Below are positions 11,794 through 40,084 of a stretch of DNA of 43,561 bases, one piece after another. The stretch's first letter is position 1; every line of letters starts with the position of its first letter. The notes below the pieces were generated by a model. The model ran no database searches. It saw only the letters and a list, made by a program, of their open reading frames with translations, and was not told the origin of the DNA. The stretch is taken from NCBI GenBank assembly GCA_947178455.1, contig CAMWYI010000002.1:1-43561 (forward strand), written 5' to 3'. The translations under genes and the position numbers were made by a program. The stretch comes from an uncultured Alistipes sp. GTDB taxonomy: Bacteria > Bacteroidota > Bacteroidia > Bacteroidales > Rikenellaceae.

Positions 11794-11864
11794 GGTCTGA
11801 TGGCCGAGCGGTTAGGCAAAGGTCTGCAAAACCTTGTACAGCGGTTCGATTCCGCTTCAGACCT
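11794..11864 (+). tRNA. tRNA-Cys (anticodon GCA)
   Basis: GGTCTGA/TCAGACC acceptor stem, GCC-GAGCGGTTA-GGC D arm, AAGGT-CTGCAAA-ACCTT anticodon arm, AGCGG-TTCGATT-CCGCT T arm. Confidence 0.95.
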
Positions 11865-11882
11865 CACCGAAACAGCGTTACA
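11851..11882 (+). repeat. att direct repeat, left copy (tRNA-Cys T-arm to terminator stem)
   Basis: tccgcttcagacctcacCgaaacagcgttaca. Confidence 0.9.
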
Positions 11883-39112: not shown

Positions 39113-39152
39113 ACGTTTTCCCGCCGAATTGTCCACAGGTCGACAAAATTTT

Positions 39153-39186
39153 CGGCGTTAAAAACGCCGTTTTAAGCGCGAAGGAC
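39153..39186 (+). repeat. REP-like hairpin element, copy B
   Basis: CGGCGTT-AAA-AACGCCG then TTTTAAGCGCGAAGGAC. Confidence 0.65.
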
Positions 39187-39320
39187 GGTCGGCGAGCATC
39201 GGACGGTTTCTGCGCCGTGACCGTTTTATAACAGCGGCTCTATGAGCCGCGCGGGCCGAAGCCTCCGCCAGCGGAGGCCCGCCACATGCGTGTCGTGCTC
39301 CGCAGTCTTCGACCCGCATT

Positions 39321-39351
39321 TTTGTAATCTCCCCAAAAAAGGTTATTTTTG
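39321..39351 (+). promoter_or_regulatory. Consensus Bacteroidetes promoter
   Basis: TTTG (39321-39324), exactly 19 nt, TATTTTTG (39344-39351). Confidence 0.75.
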
Positions 39352-39357
39352 CACCGA

Positions 39358-39565
39358 TACATATTGTTATACACGGAAAGTGTAAGTTTATTTTCTATTC
39401 GCGAACGTAGGAAATTCGTCACCAACGAAAATAGGCTAACATCTTCCCGCGTCGTACCTCGAATGAGGTATAGACGTGGGGTTGTTACTTATTTAAGTTG
39501 GTGAGGCATCCTACGACCTGCGTTTATTAGATAAGTTTCGGCCCCACACTTTTCTATTTTTAGGG
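39358..39565 (+). ncRNA. Candidate structured RNA (stand-alone sRNA or cis-regulatory leader), family unknown
   Basis: Downstream of consensus promoter; closing stem GAAAATAG (39427-39434)/CTATTTTT (39554-39561); hairpin CCCGCGTC-g-TACCTC-GAAT-GAGGTA-ta-GACGTGGG (39446-39480); ACTTAT/ATAAGT stem; no convincing ORF. Confidence 0.45.
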
Positions 39566-39613
39566 TCAGACAATTCCTAACCTCTTTAATAAAAACATTC
39601 GCAGGAGCCGAGA

Positions 39614-40084
39614 ATGATAAAAACGGCTCGTCTTGCGATGAAAAAACGGTTTTATGCGCTCTTGTGCCGGTTCGCCCGCCGGTACGTCTATCCCACCCGG
39701 TCGCTTTTCGGAACGTGGGGGCTTTATTGCGAATACGGTGTCCATGCGGGCAAACCTTTCCGCGAGGATTGTACGCTGCGCGACTGGTGGATAATTATCG
39801 AACCCGGTCATCGCGGCTATTGGGACGAACACGGCGAAACCGAACCGCTCTACTGGCACCGAATCGGATGTCGGCGAATCGTGCTGGATCATCCTGATTT
39901 GTGCTTTTTTCGCAAAATCGTGCGGCTGACCCGCAATGAACTATGGCTGAAAACCGAGTTGGGATATAAGCGCGAACACTGGTACATCGAATGCTACCGG
40001 CGCGGAACTCCGCCGCCCGACCCCGATTTATTTTATGAATCGTATTGCGCGAGCCTCGATAAAGCCACCGAAAACGACCGATGA
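39614..40084 (+). CDS. Hypothetical protein, 156 aa
   Basis: ORF with AGGAG-like upstream (gcaggagccgagaATG); basic/aromatic-rich; no family recognised. Confidence 0.6.
   Translation: MIKTARLAMKKRFYALLCRFARRYVYPTRSLFGTWGLYCEYGVHAGKPFREDCTLRDWWIIIEPGHRGYWDEHGETEPLYWHRIGCRRIVLDHPDLCFFRKIVRLTRNELWLKTELGYKREHWYIECYRRGTPPPDPDLFYESYCASLDKATENDR

Follow-up and report, generated by a model that had tools for sequence, protein, structure and literature searches.

A structured leader RNA family of Bacteroidota with a two-arm core and a candidate termination switch

The stretch of DNA analysed here (the window, 43,561 nt) comes from an uncultured Alistipes sp. (GCA_947178455.1, contig CAMWYI010000002.1), and its only Rfam or tRNA match is a tRNA-Cys (gca) at positions 11794-11865 of the forward strand. 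The same strand, to which all window coordinates below refer, carries in succession a promoter, an RNA element of about 200 nt, and an open reading frame for a hypothetical protein of 156 aa (39614-40084), which adjoins the RNA and is its presumed target gene. As read from the sequence, the promoter consists of TTTG at -33 (39321-39324) and TATTTTTG at -7 (39344-39351, TAnnTTTG type), separated by a spacer of 19 nt, exactly where an earlier sequence-only reading had placed a consensus promoter. Elements at -7 and -33 are those of the sigma-ABfr-type promoter of Bacteroidota (PMC7366714). The promoter is conserved in relatives, with TAnnTTTG no more than 60 nt upstream of 69 of 82 dissimilar copies of the RNA, compared to 12 and 1 in control stretches. 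In an alignment of copies, the conserved ACATA (39359-39363) marks the probable start of the RNA. Just upstream of the promoter, both in the window (39205-39310) and at the locus of an orthologous gene in another species (L255:1100-1190), there is a GC-rich palindromic stretch, GCCTCCGCcaGCGGAGGC, with similar flanks; it may be a repeat common to the two loci or serve the adjacent gene as a terminator.

The approximately 200 nt that follow the promoter are far more stably folded than expected by chance (z -6.4 against 200 dinucleotide shuffles, 0/200 as stable). The sole reading frame across them encodes 51 aa from a TTG start, in agreement with the earlier statement that no convincing ORF follows the promoter. 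A cmscan search of the whole window against Rfam 15 assigned no family to the RNA at the gathering score, and at E ≤ 10 the sole match within 39150-39650 was an antisense, below-threshold hit to MicA. Likewise, no Rfam match was found at the element in 18 loci from Flavobacteria, Cytophagia, Sphingobacteria, Fibrobacter, Bacteroidales, and one viral contig, nor did any known riboswitch class match the element in any locus searched. The suggestion of an unrecognised Bacteroidales RNA was thus right, if understated. In the open-access papers searched we found no description of this RNA family, for which an earlier partial prediction (e.g. of the terminator hairpin alone) is possible. Transcriptome studies of Bacteroides and Flavobacterium report 5' regions that are long or structured and match nothing in Rfam, and some copies may already be listed there, though not as members of one family.

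BLASTN searches of relatives returned several copies in the window's own genome and strong matches in many congeners, each beside a different gene. This multi-copy family had been overlooked in the sequence-only reading, which was correct about the promoter and the folded non-coding RNA but proposed a closing stem that is not supported. A covariance model (R1) for genome searches was built from 34 aligned genus copies; it was based on a rod-shaped fold and served as a finder, without a claim on structure. R1 detected the element in 135 of the 151 genomes of the genus, with 1-14 copies each, and in 101 of 393 sampled Bacteroidales genomes representing 65 of 207 genera, the order-level count being a lower bound because only six candidates were scored per genome. 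In a phylum-level draw, where a genus-trained model is weak, the window's genome and 6 of 296 others were positive. An exact pattern for one common P4 type (TCTGGTAAATT..TTACCAGARCC) identified at least 119 stretches in a collection of named genomes. The matches listed include Bacteroides, Phocaeicola, Parabacteroides, Leyella, Hoylesella, Alistipes, Rikenella, Chryseobacterium, Flavobacterium, Dyadobacter, Runella, Emticicia, Mucilaginibacter, Echinicola, and Fibrobacter. The family, with both gut and environmental carriers, extends beyond the order to Flavobacteria, Cytophagia, Sphingobacteria, and Fibrobacter. Cultured carriers include Bacteroides xylanisolvens, Phocaeicola coprocola, and Rikenella microfusus. 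When R1 was run over 85 pattern-matched loci, it gave 74 matches, one of them antisense. Five more pattern matches are found in viral-classed contigs (IMG/VR, L249-L253). Some pattern hits come from records that bear the names Clostridia, Sporosarcina, or Alphaproteobacteria (L156, L150, and L142); these are taken as mis-binning or chance, and L142 does not resemble the element. Copies within the genus are approximately 70-77% identical. One copy (L050:1962-2063, reverse strand) lacks the middle of the element, having 102 nt instead of approximately 185 with the 5' and 3' parts retained, and may be a natural deletion.

Two folds were compared for this family. RNAalifold predicted a single rod from the genus alignment, with 57 pairs, 24 of which show compensatory change, and the minimum free energy (MFE) structure likewise gives a rod closed by GGAAAGTGT/ACACTTTTC. 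The alternative comprises arm A, hairpin P8, and arm B, with the loops of the two arms joined through the helices P3, P4, and P5. Both folds were counted on the same MAFFT alignment of the 34 genus copies, which was fitted to neither, and covariation was additionally counted on 90 wider sequences and on 107 mutually dissimilar, mostly non-genus copies. As the 90 wider sequences were aligned to the rod model, this set is biased against the arms, and the order-level set was also collected by a rod-based model. On the genus alignment, the helices found only in the two-arm fold, namely arms A and B and the alpha and beta stems, are supported. The deciding test compared complementarity within a copy to that between copies (107 copies, 2000 permutations). 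The exact P4 pattern partly chose the phylum-wide sets, which fixes P4 in them, and claims on P4 accordingly rest on sets chosen otherwise. Since the intra- versus inter-copy test backs A, B, P3, P5, and P8 but not the lower stem of the rod (s1.s4, z 0.4 phylum-wide), the two-arm fold is the one supported by the sequence comparisons and the single rod was rejected. The 5'/3' closing pair of the rod has no double-sided change in the genus and weak phylum-wide support (303/5000); its middle, consisting of P3, P4, P5, and P8, stands.

At the 5' end, the pairing TACAC/GTGTA (39370-39383) noted earlier is present as a small hairpin, P0 (39371-39374/39380-39383), with 97.8% of cells paired and no double-sided change in the 34 genus copies and 87.7% paired in the wider set. 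Arm A pairs GTTTATTTTC (39386-39395) with GAAAATAGGC (39427-39436); in the 34 genus copies, 96.5% of its cells are paired and six of ten pairs are changed on both sides (columns 17-26/62-71), in the 90 wider sequences approximately 90% are paired with double-sided changes in most pairs, and the 107-copy test gave z -12.5 (0/2000). Its 5' strand is followed by the 5' strand of P3 (39396-39402), which reaches into the loop of arm B to pair with GCGTTTA (39520-39526). P3 has z -33 (0/2000, 107 copies) and is approximately 99% paired with several pair types per position in the 90 sequences. The loop of arm A holds the alpha hairpin GAA[CGTAGGAAA]TTC (39403-39417; stem 39403-39405/39415-39417); 6 of the 34 genus copies and 26 of the 90 wider ones have A-U for G-C in this stem, a double-sided change. 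Its counterpart in arm B is the beta hairpin GGC[..TCCTACG]ACC (39505-39518; stem 39505-39507/39516-39518), where changes such as GGT/ACC to GGC/GCC occur. The alpha loop sequence CGTAGGA (39406-39412) and the beta loop segment 39509-39515 form the kissing-type helix P4, which is 100% paired with four of seven pairs changed on both sides in the 34 genus copies, and 99.7% paired with several types per position in the 90 sequences. The types through which P4 covaries include at least CGTAGGA/TCCTACG, TCTGGTAAA/TTTACCAGA, CTTAGG/CCTAAG, TGTGAGA/TCTCACA, TCTGACA/TGTCAGA, and TGTGGAA/TTCCACA. The third loop-loop helix, P5, which is also part of the MFE structure, joins TCACCAAC (39419-39426) to GTTGGTGA (39497-39504; z -25, 0/2000, 107 copies).

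Between the arms lies hairpin P8 (39447-39479), with the base 39447-39453/39473-39479 and the top 39455-39460/39465-39470. It corresponds to the long hairpin CCCGCGTC..GACGTGGG of the earlier reading, which is real and conserved (97.5% paired; z -8.0, 0/2000, 107 copies), just as ACTTAT/ATAAGT turned out to be the upper part of arm B, where 39488-39496 pairs with TTAGATAAG (39527-39535; z -8.3, 0/2000, 107 copies). The earlier pairing list thus had P0, P8, and upper arm B right and lacked P3, P4, P5, the alpha and beta hairpins, and the terminator. Its closing stem GAAAATAG/CTATTTTT (39427-39434/39554-39561) is not supported: GAAAATAGGC pairs with GTTTATTTTC instead, and CTATTTTT makes up the U-rich tail that follows a terminator-like hairpin. 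That reading would have been given up had homologs lacked compensatory substitutions in the stems; the homologs have them. In addition, many conserved G-U pairs are found on the forward strand in the 34 genus copies, which indicates selection on RNA rather than DNA.

The earlier reading had also considered a 6S-like RNA. Such an RNA would mimic an open promoter. The approximate length of 200 nt and the rod-like MFE structure of the single sequence are shared with 6S RNA and 6S-Flavo (RF01685), but the rod stem s1.s4 has no intra-copy support (z 0.4), and 6S models had no match in the whole window at the gathering score or in 39150-39650 at E ≤ 10. In the relatives, a search with RF01685 gave no signal, but neither did its control, and the search therefore carries no weight here. 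Whereas 6S RNA is free-standing with one or two copies per genome, this RNA has up to 14, situated as leaders before co-directional genes and built from two paired arms and a terminator arm, making a 6S-like function exceedingly improbable.

The terminator-like hairpin shares a strand with P8. The 3' strand of P8 doubles as the 5' strand of the terminator base (P8b, GACGTGGGGTTG, 39473-39484), which pairs, when P8 is open, with segment T (CGGCCCCACACT, 39539-39550; conserved sequence CAGnnCCCACGC), with one C.A mismatch in the window copy. A U-rich tail follows at 39550-39561. Across 82 copies, the T fraction in this run is 0.6-1.0 at most positions against a background of 0.26, and the run is imperfect in some copies, with at least 7 T in 10 for 64 of the 82. 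As in an attenuator, a stem with the shape of an intrinsic terminator and a U-run are located between promoter and gene. The conserved helix P8a.P8b excludes the terminator helix P8b.T, and both covary. Phylum-wide, P8b.T complementarity is 17.5 within copies versus 14.7 between them (0/5000), and it is retained when the comparison is confined to the 45 copies in which T departs from the usual CACGC type (18.0 versus 14.5, 0/5000), with striking pairings of 11 bp (L189), 15 bp (L230), 12 bp (L208), and 10 bp (L239). For P8a.P8b, the values are 19.3 versus 15.0 (0/5000). P8a.T, taken as a control pairing, likewise lies above its permutations, though by less than P8b.T. The computed energies of the two helices are nearly equal, with medians of -16.3 kcal/mol for P8 and -15.8 kcal/mol for the terminator base in 85 copies. 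Some copies (e.g. L131, L136, L147, and L208) have a weak P8a.P8b and a strong P8b.T, and thus the alternative hairpin is not universal.

A further partner of T lies beyond the U-run. Segment D (GGAGCCG, 39604-39610) can form six of seven pairs with 39539-39545, and is found approximately 20 nt past the U-run across the family, ending 3 nt before the ATG in the window. An initial permutation test, in which T was compared with a broad stretch of downstream sequence, gave a weak result (80/5000); the targeted test used in its place gave 0/5000 both in the genus set and in the order set outside the genus; phylum-wide, the signal is weaker than within Bacteroidales (11/5000). Examples are CAATATCC/GGATATTG and CGGCATCA/TGATGCCG, and the ortholog locus L255 has a perfect 7-bp match. 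In many genus copies (e.g. L009, L003, and L004), a small hairpin, CACTA..GAGGTGCGG..TAGT, lies between the terminator and the start codon and presents D in its loop. The segments are arranged as 1-2-3-4, the U-run coming behind segment 3. With D a few tens of nucleotides or less before the ATG and T.D covarying in both the genus and the order set, this pairing might instead set translation or mRNA stability, with the U-run being incidental. Such purely post-transcriptional control is a possibility we regard as doubtful, as the U-run is placed precisely behind the stem and shows strong T enrichment over the 82 copies, and P8b.T covaries throughout the phylum.

The genes behind the element bear on whether it acts in cis. 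Among 91 dissimilar copies, the longest downstream ORF is co-directional in 81 and opposite in 8, and the ATG follows the element at a median distance of 44 nt, leaving little room for another promoter. The 156-aa protein encoded in the window has no Pfam or NCBIfam family and is rare, with a relative in 1 of 100 other genomes of the genus (the ortholog L255, 64% protein identity) and a paralog in its own genome (L256, 35% identity). Each of these two genes is preceded by its own diverged copy of the RNA (46 and 43 bits, respectively). That the leader has stayed with one gene family while its own sequence diverged is, on the comparative evidence, what we consider the best single argument for a function in cis. 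A stand-alone small RNA, acting in trans or binding a protein with the downstream gene as a bystander, would equally have its own promoter, a terminator-like end, and multiple copies. It would not explain the predominant co-directionality and the short distance to the ATG, the linkage maintained in ortholog and paralog, or the conserved T.D pairing, which reaches past the terminator, and is quite unlikely. More probably, the RNA is the cis-acting leader of an undescribed family that controls the adjoining downstream gene by regulated transcription termination, a reading that we put forward with reasonable confidence from the sequence comparisons.

The downstream genes are diverse. Surface-type targets comprise lipoproteins, fimbrillin-like loci, BspA-type LRR, and Por-secretion proteins; DNA-acting ones include type II/IIG/III DNA methyltransferases and PvuRts1I/SRA-type modification-dependent nucleases; and others are XRE-like regulators (identified by eye), ECF-type sigma factors, a LytTR protein, and RibD_C/dihydrofolate-reductase-family proteins. 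No shared pathway among these genes hints at a signal, and gene context yielded no ligand candidate. At four loci (L004, L006, L043, and L047), the copies precede a short ORF with the pattern M..YxxPxIExxxIxxExGF, followed by a lipoprotein-like gene. A near-identical leader with a dihydrofolate-reductase-family (RibD_C-like) gene is found in Parabacteroides, Phocaeicola, Bacteroides, Hoylesella, and Leyella (L135, L137, L141, L155, L170, L175, and L219), as well as in plasmid records of Bacteroides, Phocaeicola, and Parabacteroides (NZ_OY725962, OY726020, NZ_OY725750, and NZ_OR675140), and apparently rides a widely shared mobile element. That this copy travels across genera, and that genomes carry many copies, could be taken to mean that the element itself is a dispersed, MITE-like repeat with a promoter. 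This is very improbable, since the other copies are ancient by their identity of approximately 70-77% in the genus, covary at the RNA level, have unrelated flanks, and keep a fixed orientation to genes, while the mobile copy moves with its gene. Retron, mobile, and MITE elements were rejected as candidates, as nothing supported them and the gene association is fixed.

Among known RNAs, trp-type attenuators and terminator-type riboswitch platforms are alike in having a promoter, a structured leader with 1.2/2.3/3.4 pairing, a GC-rich stem with U-run, and an adjoining gene. In contrast to these, the RNA described here has no known aptamer and, in the window copy, no apparent leader peptide (the 51-aa TTG frame being the only one there), its segment 4 lies beyond the terminator, its targets are functionally mixed, and a large P3-P4-P5 loop-loop core precedes and embraces the terminator arm. 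Two arms with pairing apical loops also occur in purine- and lysine-type riboswitches, but in this RNA the two arms do not branch from a single closed junction, arm B is itself the terminator, and the loop pairing consists of three helices of roughly 7-10 bp. A long-range loop-loop core beside mutually exclusive helices and a U-run end is a riboswitch-like layout, and in a strict riboswitch the A/B/P3-P4-P5 core would be an aptamer for one common small molecule, with P8 versus terminator as the expression platform. However, positions in the core vary freely while pairing is restored by compensation, no pocket of invariant unpaired bases was identified, and targets ranging from BspA-like surface proteins to methyltransferases, XRE regulators, and sigma factors are unlike a metabolite regulon, and so we consider this unlikely.

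The DUF805b RNA (RF02914, clan CL00115) is, like this RNA, cis-regulatory and widespread in the order, but has a length of 35 nt versus approximately 200 nt. DUF805 reportedly goes back to a 2017 survey. No DUF805b match of at least 35.6 bits (35-position model) was found in the window or the genus loci, and 19 of the 20 best-scoring DUF805b loci have no copy of this RNA; membership in that family was rejected, with no match at the element and most DUF805b loci lacking this RNA. In two distant genomes, at L068:1446-1481 (reverse strand) and G057:C7:93757-93792, DUF805b follows a copy of this RNA at a distance of approximately 20 nt and in the same orientation, and the two may be combined in tandem in some Bacteroidales. 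Flavo-1 (RF01705) is likewise a widespread Bacteroidota motif without known function, and is reported to overlap several 5' regions in Flavobacterium psychrophilum (PMC9723704). Unlike this RNA, it matches in both orientations to transcripts (PMC9723704), and none of the loci searched, flavobacterial ones included, had a Flavo-1 match where this RNA lies.

For the preferred reading, a cis-acting leader with regulated termination, the following course can be proposed. Transcription would start at the sigma-ABfr-type promoter, near 39358, and the nascent RNA would fold arm A, hairpin P8, and arm B in this order. The loops of arms A and B would then zip via P3, P4 (the kissing alpha and beta loops), and P5 into a compact, sensor-like core, which may bias the choice of P8b between P8 (read-through) and T (termination). 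If the strand 39473-39484 were kept in P8, no terminator would form and the polymerase would read into the gene; if it paired with 39539-39550, the GC-rich stem and U-run would stop transcription after approximately 200 nt. In the read-through RNA, the freed 39539-39545 would pair with 39604-39610 beside the start codon, which could keep the terminator strand T from P8b or affect translation. The source of the bias may be a metabolite, a protein, or transcription speed.

On balance, we favour the view that these RNAs constitute a new Bacteroidota-wide leader class, with a double-arm core and three loop-loop helices arranged around its own terminator, which may serve surface-protein, restriction-modification, and regulator genes as a general switch responding to a common signal. 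If true, this would rank among the larger regulatory RNA classes that lack an assignment, occurring in most genomes of the genus and approximately a quarter of the sampled Bacteroidales. Bacteroidota dominate the human gut, and few of their cis-regulatory RNAs are understood. The architecture gives a directly testable mechanical prediction, namely P8 versus terminator, and the signal, once known, could explain the switching of accessory functions including surface proteins, methyltransferases, nucleases, regulators, and a mobile-element gene.
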